64,000 bases of DNA from NCBI GenBank assembly GCA_937135955.1, contig CAKZOB010000069.1, positions 1 to 64,000 on the forward strand, written 5' to 3'. Position 1 is the stretch's first letter, and every line of letters starts with the position of its first letter. This document shows positions 31,532-48,417 of this stretch, in pieces. Made by a program: the position numbers and the translations under genes. This DNA is from an uncultured Anaerolineales bacterium (GTDB lineage: Bacteria; Chloroflexota; Anaerolineae; Aggregatilineales; Aggregatilineaceae). Below the pieces are notes generated by a model. The model was given only the letters and a program-made list of their open reading frames with translations, ran no database searches and had not been told where the DNA came from.

Positions 31532-34500
31532 TCAGGCCCTTGCACGCTCGCTATTCTTGATGCCAGCCATCAGCAAACCGAGTTGCTCGCGCGTGGCCTC
31601 CCTGGCGGGCAGGGTGTCAATGATCTCGCCCTTGTAGAGTACCGCGATCCGGTCGGACAGGGCCATGATCTCGTCCAGTTCCGCCGAGACCAGCAACACC
31701 GCCGCGCCTTCGTCCCGTTGGTGCACAATGTGATTGTGAATGAACTCGATCGAGCCAACGTCAATGCCGCGCGTCGGTTGCGAAGCGATCAGCAGGCGCG
31801 GGCGCCGGCTGAACTCGCGGGCGACGATCAGCTTCTGCTGATTGCCGCCGGACAGGTTGCCCCCGTTGACGAAAGGCGACGGGGTGCGGATATCGAACTC
31901 CTCGATCAGGCGGACAGCGTGCTGTGTAATGGCCCCCTCGTCGCGCAACAGCCCTCCTTCCGCCTCTGGCGGGTCGGCTGTCCCGCCGCGCGCGCGCCAG
32001 ACCAGCCGTCGCCAGGGGGCAGCAAGCTGATTCAGCGCGGCCAGCGCCGCTGGCGCGCCGAGCAGTTGAGTGGCCACCAAATGCCCGATCGCGCCGAAGA
32101 TCAGCTCGGCCAGCAGCAACGAGACAGCCCCGATATTGAGCGGGTATTGCAGAACGGCCTTCTGAGCGCTGCTGAGCGACGGGCCGATGATGCGCAGGTC
32201 TGGCGGGACGCGATACAGGTCGAGCAGCGCCGTCCACAGCCAGCGATCCCACACATACAGCGCGATCACCGTCAACACAGCCACGGTCGCGCCCACCACC
32301 ACCAGGTAGCGCAGCAACGCACCGGGCAGTTGCGCCAGGTTCGGCGGTTTGGCGAAGGGGCGCTTGTAGTAATCGTTGAGCACCAGGTTGTCCGCCACAG
32401 TATACAGCTTGACCAGCCCATACCGCTGCCGGTCTTCGGGGACATGGCTGGTGCCCGCGTCCTTGATACGGCGCGGCGTAATGCGCTCGCGGTGAATGAC
32501 GCGCAACCCCAGCGCATGGTCGAACCAGCTCTGACGATCAGCGTCGCGGCGGGCAACCCAGGCGCTGAGGATCAGAGGGATCAGCAGAGGCAGGCGCAGC
32601 AACAGGAAGAGCAGGTAGCGCTGCACCAGCCGGAACGCGGACGATTGCCGGTCGTGCTGATCTACCACTTCCAGGCCGAAGAGCGCCATCCCCAGCGTCG
32701 TCCCCGTCCAGACCCAGCCGCCCAGAAAGTAGAGCGCGTCAAGCACCAGGGCTACCGGCGCGGCCAGGGCGAAATCGAGCGACTGATCGCGGAAATAGGC
32801 GACGAAGTAGCCGAAGAAATAGGTCGCGGCCAGCACCATCAGCAGATCGATCGCCAGGGCCACCGCACGCGCTCCCAGACGGGCCGCCGGCTGACGTTCT
32901 GGCTGGAGCGACCGTCCCAACAGTTTCACCGTGCCGCCTGCCGGTTCGCGCAGGCCGGTGAGCACTTCCACCAGTTCGGTCTGCCCGTTGCCCTGGACAC
33001 CGGCGATGCCCAGCACTTCGCCCGCGCGCACCGTGAAGCTGACGCCGCGCAATGCCTGTGCACCCCGGTCGTCGAAGGCGCTCAGATGCTCCACTTCCAG
33101 CACCGGCTCGGTGGGATGCGCCTCCCCCTTCTCGACCTGCAGGATGACCTCGCGCCCGACCATCATCGCCGCCAGCGAGGTTTCGGTAGCCTGGTCGGGG
33201 GTGGTGGTGCCCACCACGCGCCCGTCGCGCATGACCACAATGTTCGTGGCGACCTCGAAAACCTCTTTGAGCTTGTGCGTGATGAAGATGATCGAGACCC
33301 CCTGCGCCGCCAGTTCGCGCATGATCTTGAAGAGTTCGCGGCTTTCTTGCGGCGTCAGCACGGCGGTTGGCTCGTCCAGGATCAGAATGTCAGCCTGACG
33401 GTAGAGCGCCTTGATGATCTCGACGCGCTGCTGCATCCCCACCGGCAACTTCTCGATCACCGCGTCGGGGTCTACTTCCAGCCCATACTGGCGCGACAGT
33501 TCGCGCACGCGCTCCGCTGCAGCCCGCACACTGCGAATCTCGGTGACGTCGTGCAGAGCCACCAGGAACGCATCGAGCGCCCCATCGAGCGGCGAGGGGT
33601 GCAGGATAGCCTCATCGGCCACTGCTTGCCTGTGCTGGTAAGCGCGCCAGGCGATGACAGCCAGAGCCACGATTAGCGCCACAGTCAGCGCGACCTGGGC
33701 GGGCGCGCTGACCATATCCAGGTTCAGCGCTCCGGCCCCCACATAGAGCACCAGCAGGCCGCCCACGATGATCAGATCGAGGCGCTGCCAGCGCCCCGGC
33801 GCACGCGCCGTCCCACGCCAGGAGCGCACGCTGTGCCCGCCGATCAGGGCGAGCAAGATGACCACGCTGAGCGCTTGGGCGACAGGCGGGGCCTTATCTA
33901 TGCCATCCAGCAACCAACCGGGGATGCCGTTATCGCGGTATTCTTCCATCTGCGCTCTGGCGCTGGCAATGACACCATCAACCCCTGTGCCAGCGCTGTT
34001 GGCGTTGCGGTATTCCTTGGCCCAGTCGAACTCGATGCGCTGACGCCGGATCAGCGCGCTCTTGACCGTGTAGCCGCCGTCCATTTCCTGTGGCTTGCGC
34101 TCGCGCACCATTTCCACCTGCTGGCGCAGCGCAATATCGGTGAGGCCCACGCGCGTGATCTGCGCCACCTGTGACGCGATGCTCAGCGCCACCAGCGCCA
34201 GCACCGCCCGCCAGAGGAGACCCCAACCCAACCGGGCAGCGGGCGGCACGGCCACGGCGGCCCCGACCACCAGCCCGGCCACCGCCCCGCCGATCGCGTA
34301 GCGCAGCTCGCCGAGCGCCAGGCCGACGAGCAGGCCCAGCACCACAACCACCAGACTGGGCAGCCAGCGCAGCAGGCGTCGTAGCAGGGGGTTGTTGCCG
34401 CCCCGGTAGGCGACCGTGCCCTCCTCGCCCAGCACAACGTTTTCGGCCACGGTCATCACGTTGACCAGTTGGAAGTGCTGATGCACCATGCCAATGCCGC

Positions 34501-34762
34501 TGCGGATCGCTTCGCGCGGGCTGGCGAAGCGCACCTCGTGCCCCTTCAGGCGGATCGTGCCGCTATCGGCATGGTACAGGCCGTAGATGATGTTCATCAG
34601 GGTCGTTTTGCCCGCGCCGTTTTCTCCCAGCAGCGCCAGGATTTCGCCACGCCGCAGCTTCAGGCTGACGTTGTCGTTGGCCAGCACGCCGGGAAACTGT
34701 TTGGTCACGCCCTCGACTTCGAGGACGATGTCGTTGGAGGAGGAAAGGTTCGGATCGGTCAT
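31532..34762 (-). CDS. Nucleoside-importer ABC ATPase with three transmembrane insertions, including an RDD domain
   Basis: The 1076-residue protein is a two-NBD ATPase of the BmpA/YufO (purine nucleoside) group. NBD1 has Walker A GENGAGKTT (46-54), Q-loop Gln95, signature LPVGMQQR (439-446), Walker B ILILDEPTAVLT (459-470) and His496. NBD2 has the family's degenerate Walker A GVQGNGQTE (588-596), HVPEDRQRYGLV (773-784), signature LSGGNQQK (970-977) and LLIASQPTRGID (990-1001). Insertion 1 (about 113-412) has several membrane helices and a soluble middle; insertion 2 (about 618-758) is RDD-like; insertion 3 (about 804-947) has two or three helices. Insertions 1 and 3 lie at the same site of each NBD, after TVAENVVLG and TVADNLVLN. 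Without them about 490 residues remain, near the family norm. The frame is uninterrupted. Confidence 0.93.
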   Translation of the reverse strand: MTDPNLSSSNDIVLEVEGVTKQFPGVLANDNVSLKLRRGEILALLGENGAGKTTLMNIIYGLYHADSGTIRLKGHEVRFASPREAIRSGIGMVHQHFQLVNVMTVAENVVLGEEGTVAYRGGNNPLLRRLLRWLPSLVVVVLGLLVGLALGELRYAIGGAVAGLVVGAAVAVPPAARLGWGLLWRAVLALVALSIASQVAQITRVGLTDIALRQQVEMVRERKPQEMDGGYTVKSALIRRQRIEFDWAKEYRNANSAGTGVDGVIASARAQMEEYRDNGIPGWLLDGIDKAPPVAQALSVVILLALIGGHSVRSWRGTARAPGRWQRLDLIIVGGLLVLYVGAGALNLDMVSAPAQVALTVALIVALAVIAWRAYQHRQAVADEAILHPSPLDGALDAFLVALHDVTEIRSVRAAAERVRELSRQYGLEVDPDAVIEKLPVGMQQRVEIIKALYRQADILILDEPTAVLTPQESRELFKIMRELAAQGVSIIFITHKLKEVFEVATNIVVMRDGRVVGTTTPDQATETSLAAMMVGREVILQVEKGEAHPTEPVLEVEHLSAFDDRGAQALRGVSFTVRAGEVLGIAGVQGNGQTELVEVLTGLREPAGGTVKLLGRSLQPERQPAARLGARAVALAIDLLMVLAATYFFGYFVAYFRDQSLDFALAAPVALVLDALYFLGGWVWTGTTLGMALFGLEVVDQHDRQSSAFRLVQRYLLFLLLRLPLLIPLILSAWVARRDADRQSWFDHALGLRVIHRERITPRRIKDAGTSHVPEDRQRYGLVKLYTVADNLVLNDYYKRPFAKPPNLAQLPGALLRYLVVVGATVAVLTVIALYVWDRWLWTALLDLYRVPPDLRIIGPSLSSAQKAVLQYPLNIGAVSLLLAELIFGAIGHLVATQLLGAPAALAALNQLAAPWRRLVWRARGGTADPPEAEGGLLRDEGAITQHAVRLIEEFDIRTPSPFVNGGNLSGGNQQKLIVAREFSRRPRLLIASQPTRGIDVGSIEFIHNHIVHQRDEGAAVLLVSAELDEIMALSDRIAVLYKGEIIDTLPAREATREQLGLLMAGIKNSERARA

Positions 34763-37663: not shown

Positions 37664-38866
37664 ATGCGTATTCTCATCTTGGGTGGCGACGGCTATCTGG
37701 GCTGGCCGACCGCCATGTACTTCAGCAGGCGTGAGCACACGGTAGCCGTTGTAGACAACTTCTTGCGGCGGATGATGCACGCCGAGCGCGGCACCGACAG
37801 CCTGACGCCAATCCGTTCCCTGCACGAGCGCGTCCAGGCGTGGCGCGAAGTCACTGGCCGCACTATTGAGATGCACATTGGTGACATCAAAGACTGGTAC
37901 TTCATCAGCCGTGTCATCCGTGAATTCCAGCCCGACGCCATCGTTCACTATGGTGAGATTCCCAGCGCGCCCTACTCCATGATTGATGTGCATCATGCGG
38001 TGCGCGTGCACGAGAACAACGTCAACGGCACGCTCAATGTGCTGTGGGCCATGCACGAGTTCGCCCCGCAGGCGCACCTGATCAAGCTGGGCACAATGGG
38101 CGAATATGGCACGCCCAACATTGACATCCCCGAAGGATACTTCGAAGTCGAGTATCGCGGGCGCAAGGACGTGCTGCCCTTCCCCAAACAGGCAGGCTCT
38201 TTCTATCATCTGACCAAAGTGCACGACAGCCACAACATCATGTTCGCCTGCAAAATCTGGAACCTGCGGGCAACCGACCTCAACCAGGGGGTGGTCTACG
38301 GCATTGAGACGGAAGAGTCTAATCTCGACGACCGCCTGTTGACACGCTTCGACTATGACGAATCGTTCGGGACGGCGCTCAACCGCTTCTGCGTGCAGGC
38401 TGTGGCGGGCATCCCGCTAACCGTCTTCGGCAAGGGCGAACAGACGCGCGGCTATCTCAATATCCTCGATACGCTGCAATGCGTGGAACTGACCGCGCTT
38501 CACCCGCCAGAGCCGGGCCGCATGCGTGTCTTCAACCAGTGGGTGGAGACGTTCTCGGTGCTCGACCTGGCGCGGGCAGTGCGCAAGGCTGCTCGCGAAG
38601 TGGGCATCGAGGTCAAGATCGCGCACTACGTCAACCCGCGTGTGGAGGCCGAAGAACACTACTACAATCCCGATCACAACGAACTCTATCACCTGGGCCT
38701 CAAACCGCATTTGCTCGACGATACGCTGGTGGAGCAGGTGATCAAGCGGGTTGTACAATACCGCGACCGCATCATCTACCATTCGATTGTGCCGCGCATC
38801 TACTGGGAGCGCGGCGGCACCGACGAGTACGTCGAGATCGTCGAATACGAGGACAACGGGTCATGA
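37664..38866 (+). CDS. sqdB: UDP-sulfoquinovose synthase
   Basis: The 400-residue short-chain-type epimerase family member makes UDP-sulfoquinovose from UDP-glucose and sulfite, the headgroup donor for sulfoquinovosyl diacylglycerol. NAD-binding GGDGYLGWPT (7-16) is followed by HYGEIPSAPYSM, then KLGTMGEYGTPNIDIPEG with Thr144, and SFYHLTKVHDSHN with Tyr181 and Lys185. These agree with plant SQD1 Thr145, Tyr182 and Lys186 within one position. RATDLNQGVVYG completes the fingerprint. ATG 37664 is chosen; AGGAGG is 13 nt upstream, and an in-frame GTG at 37652 is less likely. The glycosyltransferase partner sqdX is not in the window. Confidence 0.93.
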   Translation: MRILILGGDGYLGWPTAMYFSRREHTVAVVDNFLRRMMHAERGTDSLTPIRSLHERVQAWREVTGRTIEMHIGDIKDWYFISRVIREFQPDAIVHYGEIPSAPYSMIDVHHAVRVHENNVNGTLNVLWAMHEFAPQAHLIKLGTMGEYGTPNIDIPEGYFEVEYRGRKDVLPFPKQAGSFYHLTKVHDSHNIMFACKIWNLRATDLNQGVVYGIETEESNLDDRLLTRFDYDESFGTALNRFCVQAVAGIPLTVFGKGEQTRGYLNILDTLQCVELTALHPPEPGRMRVFNQWVETFSVLDLARAVRKAAREVGIEVKIAHYVNPRVEAEEHYYNPDHNELYHLGLKPHLLDDTLVEQVIKRVVQYRDRIIYHSIVPRIYWERGGTDEYVEIVEYEDNGS

Positions 38867-38936: not shown

Positions 38937-40070
38937 ATGAGACGGACACGTGCAGGAGACAGACAGATATGGGCGGCCCTGGGGCTGGCGGTGATAGCCC
39001 TGGCTCTGATGCTGGCTAGCTGCGGAGGGGAGGACAAAGAAGAGCCGTCCGTGCCCCCCACCGCAATACTCACCGCCGAACCGGTTGTCGAAGCCGAACC
39101 GGAGGGAGAAGAACCCGCCGCGCCTGCGGTCACGCCGCAACCTGTGCCTCCGCAAGCGCTTTTCACCGACGCCAGCGGGCTGGCCCAGGTAGACCTGGCG
39201 GCTTACCTCGACGTGAGCGTGACCGATGTCACCGTCTTGGAGCCGGATACAGCCCTGCTGCTGAGCGAGCCGCTGGCCTGCCCCGACCTGGAAGGTGAGA
39301 ACGTCGTGCCCTACGTGATCTACCTGCAACACGGGCGCTTCATCTACCCCTACCAGGTGTACGAAGTGAGCGGCGGGCAGGAGCCGGTCGTCGAGCGCTG
39401 CGACGACGTGCTGGTAGACGAAGAAGTGCTCTACGTGCCGACGCCCGATGCCCGCGCCGCTGTGCTCGATGCGGTGCGCTTCGACCTGGAAAAACGCGGT
39501 GTAGACCCCAACACCGGGCGCTTCAGCACAGTGCGCCCCATGGCCTGGACGGATGAAGCGCTCGGTTGCCCGCCAGGGGCCGACGCCACGCCCGTTCCAG
39601 CCCTCATTGAGGGCTACCTGATCGTGTACACGGTGGGCGGCCTGAACTACGAATATCACTCCGATGCGACCGGCAACCGCGTGATCCTGTGCGAACAGGT
39701 CGGCAGGGTGGACTCCGTGGAAGCGCTCATCGCTGCGCTGCAGGAGCAAGAAAATCTGGACGTGGTGCGGGTAGAGGACGAGGTCGCCCGTTACGAGGGG
39801 CTGAACGCCGAGGGGGTGTTGCTCGAACTCACCACGCGCGGCTACCGGGTGGGGGTGTTCACCTTTGGCTCGGCGAGCGATGCGCGCACCGCTGCCGCCC
39901 TGGTGAACGACCTAGACGTGTCGCGCATTTTCGTCTCCGGTCGGTTGCTGATCGTGCAGGAAGAGAACAGCCCGCAGGTCTACAGCGCTCTGCTGCGGCT
40001 GGCCGAAGAAGTGCGCGCACCGGTTGTTGAGCGCGGCAACGCAGCCGTCACGCCCGCCAGCGAAGAATAG
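38937..40070 (+). CDS. Lipoprotein with two related domains, function unknown
   Basis: The 377-residue protein has a lipoprotein signal (lipobox MLASCGG, Cys29), an acidic Pro/Glu linker, and then two related domains. Each has a conserved pattern of acidic residues and Cys: EPLACPDLEGENVVPYVIYL and the later DEALGCPPGADATPVPALIE, with VILCEQ near the end of the second. The C-terminal 110 residues form a third alpha/beta part with LELTTRGYRVGVFTFGSASD. This looks like a lipid-anchored extracytoplasmic scaffold. GGAGG lies about 7 nt before ATG 38937. It follows sqdB and ends at a strong terminator. Confidence 0.85.
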   Translation: MRRTRAGDRQIWAALGLAVIALALMLASCGGEDKEEPSVPPTAILTAEPVVEAEPEGEEPAAPAVTPQPVPPQALFTDASGLAQVDLAAYLDVSVTDVTVLEPDTALLLSEPLACPDLEGENVVPYVIYLQHGRFIYPYQVYEVSGGQEPVVERCDDVLVDEEVLYVPTPDARAAVLDAVRFDLEKRGVDPNTGRFSTVRPMAWTDEALGCPPGADATPVPALIEGYLIVYTVGGLNYEYHSDATGNRVILCEQVGRVDSVEALIAALQEQENLDVVRVEDEVARYEGLNAEGVLLELTTRGYRVGVFTFGSASDARTAAALVNDLDVSRIFVSGRLLIVQEENSPQVYSALLRLAEEVRAPVVERGNAAVTPASEE

Positions 40071-40100: not shown

Positions 40101-40128
40101 CGCCGCCCATCCGCGGGCGGCGTTTTTT
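40101..40128 (+). terminator. Strong intrinsic terminator
   Basis: CGCCGCCC / GGGCGGCG (8 bp, 6-nt loop) followed by TTTTTT, 30 nt after the lipoprotein stop codon. Confidence 0.9.
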
Positions 40129-40239: not shown

Positions 40240-43200
40240 CTAGGGATTGGGATCCGGATTGCACTCCGGTTGGTAGGCCGGCAGGTCCAGACGGTCTACG
40301 TAGATGTTCAGCGCCTGCGACTCCGGATTCGCCGCGCCGGTGAACACCACCCGCAGCGTGTGCTCGCCGGGCGGCAGGCCGCTCATTTCGTACAGAGCAT
40401 TTTCAAGCCACTGCCCATTCTTGTCCGGGTCGTACATATCCAGGCGCTTTACGAACACCCTATCCACGTACAGATCAGCGTAGCCGCCGAAGCGATTCTT
40501 GTGATAGAGCAAGGCGAACCCTTCTGCTTCGAAGGTGAATTCAGCAAAGATGGCCTCGCCAGGTTCGCCGGAGCCTTTCCGGACGCTACCGCCGGACGCG
40601 CTCTCCGGGAACAGGGTGACCCAGCTCGTCTCGATCGGCCCGAAGTACTTCCAGTTGTCATTGGCGTCTTCGAAGCAGCCGGCCTTGGGCAGTTCGATCC
40701 CGCCGCCGCTACCATCTGGTTTGCTCGGCAGCGGGATATCGCCAGGCTTGGGCAGCGGCGCACCATTTACGGTGAAGGCGTCCAGGTTAAACTGGTACTT
40801 ACGGGCCTTCTTGTCCTTCTGGCGCTCGAAGCGCACCTCCAGAACGTGCCGACCGCGCTCCAGGCCGCTGACATCGTAGGCGACGTACAGCTCACCGGGA
40901 TCAGGGGCGTACTGATTGGCCCTGCCATGCAGCTTGCCGTCCACATAGATACTGGCCATGCCCCAGTCGCGCCCGGTGTGCATGTACACAGTAGCCCGCT
41001 GCCCGTCGAAGAACAGGAAGGCGCTGGCGTACTTATCGTCGGTCATCAGGTACGAGCCGCCGGAGTGCTGATCGGTCGTCACGACCTGCCAGGTGCTGCT
41101 GTCGTTGACGGCGACGTACGGACTACTATCGGGCTGATAAGCCCCATAGGTGGCCGGAGCGATGGTGCGGAACTCGATGGCGTCGAAGCGCACCTTGCCA
41201 CTGTCCAGCACCAGTTCCAGCGAGTGCGGGCCATCGTTCGGCAGCAGGATGGTATGGGCGATCTGATTGGCCTTTACGTCTGCCTTGCTGTCGATCGGAT
41301 AGGGATCGCCATCAATGTAGACGGTCATGTAGCGCCCATAAGACCACTTCTGCCGGTAGATGGTGACCACGTTGCCTTCGAAGGTGGCCACCAGACGGTT
41401 GCCGCGCGAGGCCGCTTCGTGGACCGAGCCGCCCGATGCGCCACTATCGTTGATCTGAGTCCAGGAGCCAGTGTAGGCCCGCGGATAGATCATCTGCGTG
41501 ACGGGATCGGTGCCACCCACGAAGACCACGTCGTTGTCTTCGTAGTAACCGGGGCTGAGCAGCGGCAAGCCGTAGCCTTCCAGCCAGTCAATGCCGAACT
41601 TCTTGCTGCTGGCCGGGCGTAACTCGACGACGTGCGTCTTGAAGGGATCGGGGATCGGCCCGACGGAGAAGGGTACCTGGAAGCGCGTCGTGGCGGAGCT
41701 GTTGGGCATAACGCCCCATAGCTCGCCGTCAATGTAGATGTTGGCGTCGCCGAAGCTCCCGATCGGGCGGTAGATGGTCAGGTAGCTGATGCCCTGCACG
41801 GGGATGTAGAAGTGCCCCAGCGCACCGACGCTTTCCAGGTAGCGGCCATCGCTGTGCCTGGCGTCGGGCGTGCCGGGTTTAACTGCCCAGGTGCCGGCGG
41901 CGCGCACAATCTGCGTGCCCTCGGCTTCTACACGCCAGCCTGCCCCCAGGGTAGGCGAGATGTCGAAGACCTGGATCCCCCGTAGCATGATCGTCTTCTG
42001 GGCCGGATTGCGGATTTCGATCCAGGCTCCGCCGGGCATCCCGGCCAGGCCGCTGACCAGATAGCGAGCACCCTCAGCCGCAGGCTGTGCCTTGATCCAC
42101 GCGGCCTCGATGGTGCTGTGCAGCACCCCGTTGACCCACACCTCGATCGAGCCGGTCTTGCTATAGACCTCGCTGTTCACCCACAGCGAGTCGCCATCGG
42201 TGGCGTAGAGGTAGATACGCGCGTCTTTCTCGCTGGTCTTGAGCGCGTCGCCCTCCACCGTCCATTTGCCGGAGAGGATGACACGCTCGTCGGTGGAGGA
42301 CAGGTCGTAGGTTGTTGGGCTGCTGTCCGGTGCGCGGTCGTAGACCTGGAAGGCGTCAATGTTGACGTATCCAGAAGCGACAACGATCTCAGCCGTGTGC
42401 AACTGATCGTCCAGGTTGACGACCGAGAAAGGCACGATGGTTGGCGTGGTGCTGAGGGTGGAGTAGGTGCCGTAGAGCTTGCCGTCCACCAGGACGCTGG
42501 CCTTGCCGCCGTCGGAAGCCTGCTTGAAGTAGACGGTGAAAGCATTTCCATAGAAGTACACCAGCGCCCGGTTGCCCTTGCCACTGCCGCGCGAGACAGC
42601 GCTATGCGTCCACGACGTGCCCACGTAGCTGATCGCGCCCCCTTCCAGCGCCGCCGGATCGTTGTTCTGGTAGTAACCGGCTTCCAGGTAGTGTCTGCCG
42701 CTGACATCGCCGCTACGCACCAGGATAGCGTCTACGTCGAACGGTTTGTACTTGTTCCGCAGCTTACCCACTGGCTGTGGCCTGAGGGCGATGACGTGAT
42801 TGGTGCCCGCGTCCAGTCCGCCGATGATGTAGGTCTGCTGGAACGAGCCAGAAGCAGGCGACGCGGCGTAGCTATCGAACGAGGAGTGATAGTTACCGTC
42901 CACGTAGACATCTACCATGCCATACGATTGGTACATGCGATGGTAGACGACTACCGAACTGGCACCGCTTACCTCGAAGACCGCCTCGGCCACCGGCGCA
43001 CTCTGGGATGATTTCCACGTCATCTCCTGCGAAACGTGCATGTTGCCGCCCGACGCCCGCGAGTCATCGGCTTTCTTCCACTGGCCAGAGAACTGAATGG
43101 CCGGAGGCGGGAATGCGCCACCGCCGATCACCTGATCGTTCTCGTAACGGCCAGGCTGCAGCACGGGCTTGTTGTAGAGCACGACCTTGTCAATTGAAAT

Positions 43201-46200
43201 CGTCGCGCTGAAGCCCTTCTCGTTGCGGATGCGCACTTCCAGGGTGTGGAAGGCGCTGGCGTCCAGGCCGGTGACAGTATAGGGAGCGGGGGTGTAAGTC
43301 GCACCTTTGAGGTAGAGTGTGCCGTAGAAGCGGTTATCCACGTAGATATCGGCTGCGCCGTAGCTGGACTTACTGACACCATAGAGCGTCACCGTGTCCG
43401 CGCCCATAAATGACAGATAGGCGCGCGCCTGGTCATGCTTGGACTCGATGAAACGCTTGCCTGACGGGCCAGGGGTGGTCGTGTAGCGGTAGACCCAGCT
43501 CTGCTCGTAGATGAAGACCGAGGAGGTGGGCTTGCCCGCAGCGTCGTAGGTTGCTTCCTCATACTCACCTGGCCCCACGGGAGCGGTGTAGTACACCTGG
43601 TAGCCGTAGACCTCGTTGTACTTCGGGCTGGCCGGGTTGACGTTGAGATGACGCACCTGCAACACATGCGGCACGTCAGGATTGAGGCCAATGACGGCGA
43701 TGGGGACGTTCTTTGCCCCTTCTTCCTTCAGATTGACGGTGCGTTCCAGTCGCCCGTCCACATACAGCTCGATCGGGCCATTGGCGCTGCTGGTCTTGAC
43801 GTTGACGGCGACACCCGACCCCTTGAAGAACAGCGTCAACACTGCGCCGGTTTCTCTGGTGCGCACGTAGCTGTAGGCTGGCTGCGGCTGCCAGCCGTAG
43901 GACTCCTGCGCCCCGTTATAGGGCACTTTCAGCGGCGTGCCGGGCACGTCAGCCCGCTGCAAGGCCGGGGACGTGGCCAGCGTCAGAAAACGGAAGGCGT
44001 CCAGCGTGAAGGCCGCACTGCCGGGGTTGACGCGCACTTCCACCGTATGCGTGCTGTTGACATCGAGGCCGCTGATGTAGAACGGGACGACCCGCGCCAC
44101 AGTCGCGTCGTTGTTCATCGTCCCGCGCAGTTCACCATCTACGTAGACATCCGCCGTGCCACCACCGGGGAAGACAGCCCGGTAGATGGCGACCGTATCG
44201 GCACGAGTGAAGTGCACATAGACGCGATCGTAGGGGCGCGCGGCCTGGCGACCGGTGCCGTCGGGCGTGCCAGGGCGATCGGGCGCGGCCAGGCGGACGC
44301 TCTGCCAGCTTCCCACGTAGGTGATCTTGGGCCGCCCCTCTTCCCAGAAGCCCTCAAAGTCTGGTCTGAGGTCGCCCCCGGGGCCGGCGTCAACGATGCC
44401 GCCCCCGAAGCCGGTCGAAAGCCGGAAGGCGTCGAAGTCCACCACGCCCGCCGTCGCCACCAGCGTCACGGTGTGCGGGCCGAAGGCCAGGTTGGAAATG
44501 AAGTGTTCAGCCTGCTTCTGGCCTGTGTTGTCATAGTCAATGACCGAGTGTAGCTTCCCATCCACGTAGACATTGGCTGTGCCTTCGGATTCCTGACTGT
44601 AGAGCAGGGTCACCTCGGTGCCAGTGAAGGAGAAGCACGCCTCACTGCCCACGCCGTTGGCGATCAGGGTCGTGCTGCCAGGGCCGCCAGGCGAATAGCC
44701 GTCGTCGGTTACAGAGAGCGTCCAGCCACCGGGTGCGCCGCTGGCATCGTAGAGCGCCACGTAGCCGTCGTCGTTGCTCTGATACAGATCCACATCGGGA
44801 TCGCCGCTGGCTGTGATGGACGAGGCCACCCACACTTCGACCGGATCGGGTGAGTAGTATACCTGCTGTTCCCAGCGGTCGAAGATAGCGACTTCGACAG
44901 TGTTGGCCGTCCCCGGCTGAGCGAACAGTTGCAGGGTGTAGGCTTCGTCCAGGCTGTTCCATTCCCCATCGGCGGGGTCGGCGCGCTCCCAGTCGCTGTC
45001 ATTGACGCGCCCCCACACATAGCGCGCGCGATTGATGGCCGCCGCTCGATAATGAGGGCCTGCCACGAATTGCTGAGCCCCGCGATCCCACACGTAGGTA
45101 GACCAGCTATCCTGGGTATCGCCGCTGCCGAACTGCAACGGTCGGGCGGGGACGACTTCGATGGGCACCTGTGTCAGGTGCAACACCGGGCATACCGGCG
45201 CTGTCTCGAAGCCCTCGAAAGAGTCTTTGAGCGTCTCCAGCACGTCGTAAATGCCGCTGTTGTCGGCATCGCGCCAGCCCACCTGCTGACGGGCTGCTTC
45301 CGAAAGCGCGTGCGCGCGATAGGCGGCGACCATGTCTTCACCGCTGCGCATCAGCGAGGGAACCGGCGAGGGATTGCCATCCTCACAGTTGGTGTGCGCG
45401 ATGCGCAGGTAGCCGTAAATTTCTTCCGGACGGCAGCCGCTGGATTCGTCGCCCGCACCGAAGACGTGACCGACCATCTTGGCGATCAACACCTCCAGGT
45501 TGCTGATGCCCAGGTCGCCGCCGTCGTAGGTGACAACAGCCCACGGCCCGCCGATGGCTGCGCCCGCTGCCAGGCCATCGCCGTCGAACAGGCCATCGGC
45601 GTCGCTGCTGCTATCCACCACATAGAGCACCAGGCCCCAGTCTGCACCGCCGCTGACGCGCGCATCGTGCGCCAGTCGTAACACCGAGCTACCGTTGGCG
45701 GGCTGGTCGTAGAAGGCAGCAGCAACCTGATGAATCCAGCCTGTGGTCAGCTCCGAGGCGCTGGCGACACTGCCCTGGATCGGCTCTTCGGCGACCCGAA
45801 TTTTGGCGCGGTCAGCCGTCGGACCATCGAAGGGCGAGACGTAGCTGACGTTCCAGGTCAGGCGCGCGTTGGGGCGCGGCTGGCCGCCGGGAGTGGCCGG
45901 GGCAGTGGAAACCATCGTCCACCAGGTCAGCGCCTGAGTGATCTCCGTCTTCACCTTGTCCACTTCGGTGGCTGTCCAGGTTTCCGGCCCGGAGGTGCTC
46001 TCCACAAAGAGCACCTTCACCGCCACATCCCCCACCATGTAAGCGCTGGTCTGCTCCGACTCGGGAGCATAAGAGGCGGAGGTACGCGGTGAGAAGGGCG
46101 GCTGAGGGCTGACCAACGCTGTCGTGCGAACGTCGCTCTGCACTGGCACGGCATCTGCCGGATCGTCGTCGGGAGCGGTGATCGCATTCCACACCAATGC

Positions 46201-46650
46201 TGCCGCCCGCGCATCACCGGAGAGCACAGTGAACGCCGTCGCGGGCACCGGCCCACGATAGGCCGCGCGCGCGCCCGCCTTGATCAGCGCGGCTTCGTCC
46301 AGGCCTTCCACGCCCGCGAAGAGCGCGTTGCCAGAGCGGACGTAGAGTGTGCCACCCGCGCGGGCAATGGTGCGCGCCACCGTATCGAGCGTTGCCTCGT
46401 CGGCCAGGATCAGCGTGTTGAGTGGAACAGCCGGGTCGGGGGCAGCAGCTTCGGCGCGCGCCGTAGAGGGCAGGGCCGGAATTCCCGCGGGAACTTCCAG
46501 GGCCGACACGCTGGCTGACGGGAGCGCGCCCCCCGCCGCTGCCTGGGCGTGCGTGGCCCAGCCGGGCAGCATGGCCGTGACCAGGAGGGTGATCAGCACC
46601 ACTCCGGTGACCAGGCTGCGTACCATCGCAACGAGAAGGGGTTTGTTCAT
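40240..46650 (-). CDS. Giant secreted repeat protein with degenerate metalloprotease-like domain
   Basis: The 2136-residue protein starts with a signal peptide (MNKPLLVAMVRSLV, then GVVLITLLVTAMLPGWATHA). Residues 205-475 resemble a zincin region but with KMVGHVFGAGDE (391-402) where HExxHxxGxxDE is expected. After an Ig-like part around 490-610 it has 11 related beta-sandwich modules of about 130-145 residues. Each contains a strand pair such as TANVYVDGKL, TADVYVDGEL, GPIELYVDGRL, ADIYVDNRFYG, VDVYVDGNYH, ASVLVDGKLYG, IEVWVNGVLH, ANIYIDGELWG, MTVYIDGDPY, ASIYVDGKLHG and ADLYVDRVFV, preceded by a strand like VTLLYSQ. The modules recall carbohydrate-binding or surface adhesion units. No sortase motif is present. 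ATG 46650 follows GGAGG by 7 nt. It is likely cell-surface or extracellular. Confidence 0.9.
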   Translation of the reverse strand: MNKPLLVAMVRSLVTGVVLITLLVTAMLPGWATHAQAAAGGALPSASVSALEVPAGIPALPSTARAEAAAPDPAVPLNTLILADEATLDTVARTIARAGGTLYVRSGNALFAGVEGLDEAALIKAGARAAYRGPVPATAFTVLSGDARAAALVWNAITAPDDDPADAVPVQSDVRTTALVSPQPPFSPRTSASYAPESEQTSAYMVGDVAVKVLFVESTSGPETWTATEVDKVKTEITQALTWWTMVSTAPATPGGQPRPNARLTWNVSYVSPFDGPTADRAKIRVAEEPIQGSVASASELTTGWIHQVAAAFYDQPANGSSVLRLAHDARVSGGADWGLVLYVVDSSSDADGLFDGDGLAAGAAIGGPWAVVTYDGGDLGISNLEVLIAKMVGHVFGAGDESSGCRPEEIYGYLRIAHTNCEDGNPSPVPSLMRSGEDMVAAYRAHALSEAARQQVGWRDADNSGIYDVLETLKDSFEGFETAPVCPVLHLTQVPIEVVPARPLQFGSGDTQDSWSTYVWDRGAQQFVAGPHYRAAAINRARYVWGRVNDSDWERADPADGEWNSLDEAYTLQLFAQPGTANTVEVAIFDRWEQQVYYSPDPVEVWVASSITASGDPDVDLYQSNDDGYVALYDASGAPGGWTLSVTDDGYSPGGPGSTTLIANGVGSEACFSFTGTEVTLLYSQESEGTANVYVDGKLHSVIDYDNTGQKQAEHFISNLAFGPHTVTLVATAGVVDFDAFRLSTGFGGGIVDAGPGGDLRPDFEGFWEEGRPKITYVGSWQSVRLAAPDRPGTPDGTGRQAARPYDRVYVHFTRADTVAIYRAVFPGGGTADVYVDGELRGTMNNDATVARVVPFYISGLDVNSTHTVEVRVNPGSAAFTLDAFRFLTLATSPALQRADVPGTPLKVPYNGAQESYGWQPQPAYSYVRTRETGAVLTLFFKGSGVAVNVKTSSANGPIELYVDGRLERTVNLKEEGAKNVPIAVIGLNPDVPHVLQVRHLNVNPASPKYNEVYGYQVYYTAPVGPGEYEEATYDAAGKPTSSVFIYEQSWVYRYTTTPGPSGKRFIESKHDQARAYLSFMGADTVTLYGVSKSSYGAADIYVDNRFYGTLYLKGATYTPAPYTVTGLDASAFHTLEVRIRNEKGFSATISIDKVVLYNKPVLQPGRYENDQVIGGGAFPPPAIQFSGQWKKADDSRASGGNMHVSQEMTWKSSQSAPVAEAVFEVSGASSVVVYHRMYQSYGMVDVYVDGNYHSSFDSYAASPASGSFQQTYIIGGLDAGTNHVIALRPQPVGKLRNKYKPFDVDAILVRSGDVSGRHYLEAGYYQNNDPAALEGGAISYVGTSWTHSAVSRGSGKGNRALVYFYGNAFTVYFKQASDGGKASVLVDGKLYGTYSTLSTTPTIVPFSVVNLDDQLHTAEIVVASGYVNIDAFQVYDRAPDSSPTTYDLSSTDERVILSGKWTVEGDALKTSEKDARIYLYATDGDSLWVNSEVYSKTGSIEVWVNGVLHSTIEAAWIKAQPAAEGARYLVSGLAGMPGGAWIEIRNPAQKTIMLRGIQVFDISPTLGAGWRVEAEGTQIVRAAGTWAVKPGTPDARHSDGRYLESVGALGHFYIPVQGISYLTIYRPIGSFGDANIYIDGELWGVMPNSSATTRFQVPFSVGPIPDPFKTHVVELRPASSKKFGIDWLEGYGLPLLSPGYYEDNDVVFVGGTDPVTQMIYPRAYTGSWTQINDSGASGGSVHEAASRGNRLVATFEGNVVTIYRQKWSYGRYMTVYIDGDPYPIDSKADVKANQIAHTILLPNDGPHSLELVLDSGKVRFDAIEFRTIAPATYGAYQPDSSPYVAVNDSSTWQVVTTDQHSGGSYLMTDDKYASAFLFFDGQRATVYMHTGRDWGMASIYVDGKLHGRANQYAPDPGELYVAYDVSGLERGRHVLEVRFERQKDKKARKYQFNLDAFTVNGAPLPKPGDIPLPSKPDGSGGGIELPKAGCFEDANDNWKYFGPIETSWVTLFPESASGGSVRKGSGEPGEAIFAEFTFEAEGFALLYHKNRFGGYADLYVDRVFVKRLDMYDPDKNGQWLENALYEMSGLPPGEHTLRVVFTGAANPESQALNIYVDRLDLPAYQPECNPDPNP

Positions 46651-47028: not shown

Positions 47029-48228
47029 TCATTCCATGGCTGTGTCGTGCGATTCAGTATCGGGAGGCGGCGCGGGAGCGGTCGGCTGTTCGGCGGGCGT
47101 TTCGTCTTCGGCCACAGCCTCAGCAGCGGCGACCTCCGCTTCTTCTTCGGCAGGCGGTTGAGCGACAGGCGCGGCAGGTTGGGGCGCGGCGGGAGCCGTC
47201 CAGGCATCGCCGCGCAAGGCCAACCCCGCCTGCTCCAGCGCCCGGCTCACTTGCTCCGACGCCGGGTCGAGATCGTTGAGAATGCTGTAGGGGAAGCGGT
47301 GATCGGCCAGATGCTCCGCCAGATGATCGAGCAGCAGGCGGAAGTCGGTGGCGCGGATGTGGTCGAGAGGGACGTTGGCCGCGCTGAGGGCCTCGCGCAG
47401 GGGAGCCGGGTCCTGACCGTGCAGGGCCGCACAGAACAGAATGCAGGGGCCGAGTCGTTCGGCAGACGGCGTGCCACTGTTACTGGTCACCGCCAGGATG
47501 TCGGCCAGATAGTGTTCACTACCCTGCTGAGCGCGCGCATGGCCCAACAGATTATTGAGCTGCACCGCCACCATCATCAAGCTGAGCAGGGTTTGCAGCG
47601 CTTCACGGTCGCCCTGCCCGATCGCCGGAGCGCTCTTGATAGCCTGCTTGGCCAGGTCGGTGGTCACGCCCGCCGCCCAGGGCTGGAAGCGTTCGGCGCG
47701 GGGATTCTTGCCGCGCTGTGCTGCGTAGCGCCAGTCCAGCAGACCAGTGACGATCGCCAGCATGTCAGCGATGCCCGCTCCGCGTTGCGCTGGCAGGGCA
47801 TCGGCGATCACGTCCCAGTCGAGAATCACCTCAGCGGCGGGGCCAGTTTCCAGGCGCACCCGCCGTTTGCGCTCGCCGACCGGCTCGTCGGTGATGGCGT
47901 AGGGCGTGAGCATGGCGGCGCTGTCGAGCGCGGCGGGGACAACGACCAACGGCAGATGATTGTGTCCTGCCACCACTTTGGCCGCCTCGACGGGCGCACC
48001 GCTGCCCACAGCATAGATCACTTCGACAGTGCTGGGCAGGTGTTGCGCCAGGTATTCAAACAGGTCGCGGTCATAGCGGGACGGCTCAGCCTGGATGACC
48101 AGGGGCAGCGACAGGCTAGCGCTCAGCGCGGCCCATGTCTCCTCGCTGGTGAGCAGTGCCACCCGGCGGGTTTCCTGAACAGCGCTTAGCTCACGGAAAG
48201 TTATCTTGGGCAAAGGCCAGATGGCCAT
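47029..48228 (-). CDS. Glycerol-1-phosphate dehydrogenase/AraM-like protein, probably degenerate
   Basis: The 399-residue protein has the dehydroquinate-synthase/Fe-ADH fold: EVIYAVGSGAPVEAAKVVAG is the nucleotide-binding turn, then LPLVVVPAALDSAAMLTPYA, RGAGIADMLAIVTGLLDW with a possible metal Asp, and QQGSEHYLAD with a possible metal His. The second metal His of G1P dehydrogenases is not visible where expected (GTPSAERLGPC). A Pro/Ala/Glu-rich tail of about 60 residues follows (from AAPQPAAPVAQPP), which this family does not normally have. The function as an enzyme is therefore uncertain. ATG 48228 is used; GTG 48231 precedes it directly. Confidence 0.75.
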   Translation of the reverse strand: MAIWPLPKITFRELSAVQETRRVALLTSEETWAALSASLSLPLVIQAEPSRYDRDLFEYLAQHLPSTVEVIYAVGSGAPVEAAKVVAGHNHLPLVVVPAALDSAAMLTPYAITDEPVGERKRRVRLETGPAAEVILDWDVIADALPAQRGAGIADMLAIVTGLLDWRYAAQRGKNPRAERFQPWAAGVTTDLAKQAIKSAPAIGQGDREALQTLLSLMMVAVQLNNLLGHARAQQGSEHYLADILAVTSNSGTPSAERLGPCILFCAALHGQDPAPLREALSAANVPLDHIRATDFRLLLDHLAEHLADHRFPYSILNDLDPASEQVSRALEQAGLALRGDAWTAPAAPQPAAPVAQPPAEEEAEVAAAEAVAEDETPAEQPTAPAPPPDTESHDTAME

Positions 48229-48417
48229 CACAGTTTTCTCCTGACTCTATCCTGTTCAGGTTCCCTCAAAGGGGTTTGTAGCTGGCTTAGCGACTGCCGT
48301 AAGTGTAGTGCGAAATCGCGCATTCGTCCAGCACAGCGAGGGAGGTAATCGCATCAAACCCAGCCAGCAGAACCATGGGCAGAAGTAAGCTCAGAGAAGC
48401 TCCGTGTGATCTTCTGG

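Follow-up and report, generated by a model that had tools for sequence, protein, structure and literature searches.

What could a 2136-residue protein with eleven similar beta-sandwich modules do for the bacterium that encodes it? The gene lies in the window, i.e. the whole 64,000-nucleotide stretch of Anaerolineales DNA that was analysed, as a single frame on the minus strand from an ATG at 46650 to a stop at 40242–40240, exactly the borders proposed in the original prediction. That prediction, of a secreted giant with eleven diverged modules, agrees with the Sec-type signal peptide (cleavage site placed by eye) and the eleven homologous modules listed in Table 1, and the protein is probably secreted. 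The prediction described the module array well, but it overlooked that the first ~620 residues appear to be a complete, inactivated secreted metallopeptidase.

The mature protein is 226 kDa and acidic (pI 4.85). The original prediction expected proteins of this size to dominate a cell surface; neither SLH nor another anchor motif was found in it. Purifying selection acts on every part of the protein beyond the signal peptide, and dN/dS for the whole gene is 0.147 when compared with the closest orthologue, from Anaerolineales bacterium UBA2029 (Chloroflexota, 89% identity). No relatives were found in a plasmid collection, and protein P0001 gave no match when searched against PDB sequences.

Table 1. 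Features of the giant gene and its neighbours, in positions of the window
Feature	Position	Strand	Basis
Whole giant gene, 2136 aa	40240..46650	-	single ORF
Sec-type signal peptide, about aa 1-37 (...LPGWATHAQA|A)	46540..46650	-	sequence, hydropathy maximum aa 5-24
Propeptide-like segment, about aa 74-185	46096..46431	-	orthologue alignment
Metzincin-like metallopeptidase domain, inactivated, aa 195-500	45151..46068	-	34% identity to intact L013, profile searches, tree
Ruined zinc site KMVGHVFGAGDE, aa 391-402, replacing HExxHxxGxxDE	45445..45480	-	alignment
Retained Met-turn S-L-M, aa 432-434	45349..45357	-	alignment; S-I-M in L013
Probable Ig-like domain, aa 501-620	44791..45150	-	by-eye resemblance to C-terminal part of L036, L041
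Module 1, aa 621-762	44365..44790	-	leave-one-out HMM, genome scan
Module 2, aa 763-893	43972..44364	-	leave-one-out HMM, genome scan
Module 3, aa 894-1026	43573..43971	-	leave-one-out HMM, genome scan
Module 4, aa 1027-1165	43156..43572	-	leave-one-out HMM, genome scan
Module 5, aa 1166-1323	42682..43155	-	leave-one-out HMM, genome scan
Module 6, aa 1324-1444	42319..42681	-	leave-one-out HMM, genome scan
Module 7, aa 1445-1569, YVDG core without D	41944..42318	-	leave-one-out HMM (second weakest), genome scan
Module 8, aa 1570-1699, N-terminal VEAEG CBM35-like	41554..41943	-	leave-one-out HMM, genome scan
Module 9, aa 1700-1834, structure predicted	41149..41553	-	leave-one-out HMM, AF2, fold comparison
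Module 10, aa 1835-1988, Pro/Gly linker inside	40687..41148	-	leave-one-out HMM, genome scan
Module 11, aa 1989-2136, C-terminal type, Cys 1992 and 2130 flanking	40243..40686	-	leave-one-out HMM
Intrinsic-terminator-like hairpin between convergent genes	40101..40122	+	count of such sites in region near chance expectation
Convergent lipoprotein gene (lipobox LASC), candidate partner	38937..40070	+	co-occurrence with giant gene
UDP-sulfoquinovose-synthase-like gene	37664..38866	+	496 bits, below NCBIfam cut-off 575
Glycerol-1-phosphate-dehydrogenase-like (Fe-ADH) gene	47029..48231	-	Pfam

The metzincin-like head

The ~300-residue head domain is 34% identical to the intact homologue L013 (same order). 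In L013, LSHEMGHTFGALDEY is the metzincin zinc motif, followed by the Met-turn SIM, while the matching columns of the giant protein read IAKMVGHVFGAGDES. HExxHxxGxxD has here become KMVGHVFGAGD and no longer agrees with the metzincin motif HExxHxxGxxH/D: the first zinc histidine (now K391) and the catalytic glutamate (now M392) are lost, while H395, D401, the Met-turn and flanking Cys are kept. The Met-turn stands downstream of the motif as in metzincins, and no HExxH is found elsewhere in the 2136 residues.

KM[VI]GH is present in all 11 gene-bearing genomes among the 18 of the family, while HExxH is kept in 43 of 43 homologues from outside the family, elsewhere in Chloroflexota (those with the motif fully read, sampled across the class and phylum). 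In the tree, the KM sequences form one clade (support 100/100, stem 1.24 changes per site), i.e. the change from HE to KM had a single origin. There is no intact paralogue of the head domain in the family genomes. The dead head is not decaying, as its dN/dS is 0.116 and 24% of its residues are invariant across genera, compared to 6–20% in the modules.

The motifs and the homology to intact homologues suggest that the head is metzincin-like. The intact homologues match Pfam Reprolysin models below threshold only, and a wide head profile aligns to fragilysin and ADAM17 in the PDB at the zinc motif only, with non-significant E-values of 0.4–1. An AF2 model of the head, from an alignment of just two sequences, has a pLDDT of 31.7. 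The head profile gave no match in viral contigs.

A similar-looking segment stands upstream of the catalytic domain in the intact homologues too, and residues ~74–185 of the giant protein are probably a propeptide. Three congeners (L004/G004, L005/G003, L006/G001) have a deletion of this ~110-residue segment while keeping the dead head and the modules, as might be expected if activation no longer matters. The probable Ig-like domain likewise follows the catalytic domain in intact homologues; no Pfam family reaches threshold for residues 501–620, and a CHU_C match at residues ~500–620 (E 0.13) was rejected.

The secreted metzincin-like peptidases of Chloroflexota (L013, L035, L041 and others), with 30–40% identity to the first sequence of alignment A3, share the domain, the Met-turn and the C-terminal Ig-like domain with the giant protein. 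However, they keep HExxHxFxALDxY, and no such modules were found in the stretches read. Animals have their own pseudo-metzincins, ADAM2, 11, 22, 23 and 32, in which HExxH is ruined and the Met-turn kept, and which make protein-protein contacts (PMC11266112). The head of the giant protein resembles these in combining a metzincin-like domain with a ruined HExxH and a retained Met-turn, but it is bacterial, has KMxGH rather than Q-type replacements, lacks a disintegrin domain and is followed by beta-sandwich modules.

Family, fold and history of the modules

An HMM made without a given module still finds it, for all eleven (E 1.5e-9 to 2.6e-28, 34–95 bits), while none of 1000 shuffles scored above 11.8 bits. 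The proposed YVDG-like core was located eleven times, at residues 695, 836, 963, 1103, 1249, 1387, 1504 (VWVNG), 1639, 1778, 1902 and 2062. The count of eleven stands, and refined borders give lengths of 121–158 residues, a slightly broader range than the proposed 130–145. Their clear divergence is borne out by a mean identity of 21% within one protein. When the whole 4.28-Mb assembly was scanned in six frames with the module profile, these 11 modules and three weak matches elsewhere were found.

Sequence and model both indicate that the modules are unremarkable representatives of the CE2-N/CBM35/CBM6 group of beta-sandwiches. Pfam CE2_N (PF17996) matches the whole protein in three stretches with E=1.5e-16 and 60.8 bits, above the gathering score of 27.9, although several modules alone fall below this score and single modules match weakly (7 of 22 at E<=1). 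Among PDB sequences, the module profile matches residues 440–510 of cycloisomaltooligosaccharide glucanotransferase (E 0.004), which we take to be its CBM35 domain. The AF2 model of module 9 (pLDDT 72.4, pTM 0.71), built on an alignment with the remaining modules of the giant protein and the modules of the UBA2029 orthologue, is all beta and matches the CE2 N-terminal domain 2waa (Z 12.3) and the CBM35 2w3j (Z 12.1) using Foldseek and VIA-align. The predicted fold is thus of the CBM35/CBM6 type, with Z 11–12 over 107–121 residues. This contradicts the statement that the modules are not readily assigned to a known carbohydrate-binding family. The original prediction named a family with a known ligand as evidence against itself; family and fold can now be given, the ligand not, as CBM35 ligands vary. 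To our knowledge, CE2_N has no established ligand either.

In CBM6/35, an N-terminal Glu and a C-terminal Asp position belong to a structural calcium site, and the pattern in the giant's modules is compatible with such a site. Unlike in CE2 enzymes, no SGNH esterase domain follows CE2_N (the Pfam scan of the 2136 residues gave no catalytic domain of carbohydrate esterase family 2), and eleven modules stand in tandem. Pfam matches to Thioredoxin_10, NusG_II and BamE were below cut-offs, covered parts of single modules and were set aside as chance or remote beta-sandwich similarity. In the same genome, a 1076-residue open frame (L002, G000:C76) contains Ig-like domains and two CE2_N-like modules.

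Glycan binding by the modules is plausible, and it could be the entire function, i.e. the modules would capture matrix or capsular polysaccharide multivalently and the dead peptidase would be a leftover platform for secretion or folding. The kinship with CE2_N and CBM35/CBM6 fits this, and the modules have diverged enough from each other for different ligands. However, the residues invariant between modules are mostly framework (W31, D81, H110, E113, E5 and D124, numbered as in module 9) and do not reveal a glycan site conserved throughout the modules, and the head, being among the most conserved parts of the protein, does not behave like a leftover. We consider pure glycan capture unlikely.

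The orthologues, some of them cut by contig ends, keep the whole architecture with 40–49% identity across genera. In a tree of the modules from 11 orthologues of eight genera, each module is monophyletic (support 0.96–1.0), and the same module is 43% identical between genera, compared to 21% between modules of one protein. From this monophyly it follows that the array is ancient: it was already complete when the eight genera diverged, and no shuffling has followed. Module order and number are fixed across genera, in contrast to typical variable adhesins with tandem repeats, where both turn over. The module-11 type also occurs outside the giant protein: an unrelated Ig/LTD protein (L014, G013:C100), likewise secreted, carries one (E 2e-38) at its C-terminus, with a similar Cys-containing tail at the end. 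Modules of this type may serve for C-terminal sorting or capping.

A frozen order could also come from the packing of neighbours in a structural coat, such as a sheath, an S-layer-like layer or a filament cover, in which the modules would be inert bricks. The monophyly of every module, the dominance of framework residues in the conservation and the large, acidic mature protein would all suit a coat. Against this, the gene is single copy, an anchor was not found, and the gene is missing in 7 of the 18 family genomes, nearly complete ones included, so the protein is not an essential envelope component. A coat is, in our view, also improbable.

The locus and the neighbouring lipoprotein

Across genera, the gene order is UDP-sulfoquinovose-synthase-like, lipoprotein, giant gene and Fe-ADH/glycerol-1-phosphate-dehydrogenase-like. 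All 11 genomes that carry the giant gene have a strong match to the lipoprotein, compared to one of the seven family members that lack it (Fisher p=0.0004, uncorrected for relatedness, the genomes being from one family and not phylogenetically independent). This co-occurrence makes the lipoprotein the best partner candidate. Where the giant gene is missing, the outer two genes lie side by side in G006, G011 and G017, while in G013 the lipoprotein alone stands between them. A functional link to the outer two genes was discounted, as the pair stays adjacent without the giant gene.

Elsewhere in the window (31532..34762, minus strand), a 1076-residue frame contains three ABC-ATPase stretches with an RDD membrane domain (residues 627–750) between them. 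It adjoins two branched-chain/sugar-type permease genes and is conserved in the relatives L082 and L108; the insertion of a membrane domain into an ABC ATPase seems unusual.

Proposed role

We suggest, with about even confidence for and against, that the giant protein is secreted, has no catalytic activity and works as a scaffold or adhesin headed by a pseudo-peptidase. The ancestor would have been a secreted metzincin-type peptidase with signal peptide, propeptide-like segment, catalytic domain and Ig-like domain, whose zinc site was lost (HE to KM) in a single lineage of Anaerolineae; the eleven CE2_N/CBM35-type modules now stand behind the dead head. The head would bind a partner, protein or peptide, and leave it uncut, comparable to the ADAM22-type pseudopeptidases (PMC11266112). 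The modules would form a long stalk, at a guess of ~4–5 nm each roughly 50 nm, and may bind extracellular glycan weakly and multivalently and/or serve as spacers, while the neighbouring lipoprotein possibly anchors or organises the giant protein. It can be speculated further, although we find it doubtful, that these proteins are an ADAM22-like bacterial family of pseudo-metzincin receptors or scaffolds, with a dead binding head, a fixed 11-module glycan-binding stalk and a dedicated surface lipoprotein. The component parts are already known; what is new is that a conserved pseudo-metzincin head stands before an array of modules frozen in order.

A dead cleft could instead regulate peptidases, as a decoy or inhibitor that binds their substrates or propeptides. 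Such a role is known for some pseudopeptidases (PMC11266112), and the cleft region, including the Met-turn, is conserved. However, the same genomes contain no intact peptidase of the head-domain family, and the eleven modules would be left unexplained; we hold this to be very improbable. Least probable of all is a still active peptidase with an altered metal site made of K391, H395 and D401. H395, D401 and the Met-turn are retained, but every orthologue lacks both the first zinc histidine and the catalytic glutamate, and the protein has no HExxH at another site.

The scaffold or adhesin reading is of interest for the habitat of these bacteria. The family of the window is probably UBA2029, since a contig is shared by G002 and the record of Anaerolineales bacterium UBA2029. 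Members of the Chloroflexota family UBA2029 are reported from anammox reactors (PMC8811301), and in such reactors the lattice of the biofilm is formed by filamentous Chloroflexi in ways that are not fully understood (PMC10202920). A conserved giant secreted scaffold without a catalytic site is a concrete candidate for the means by which these bacteria keep hold of partners or matrix. The giant protein would also be a clear bacterial example of a metzincin that has become a pseudoenzyme, and intact relatives are available to compare it with.
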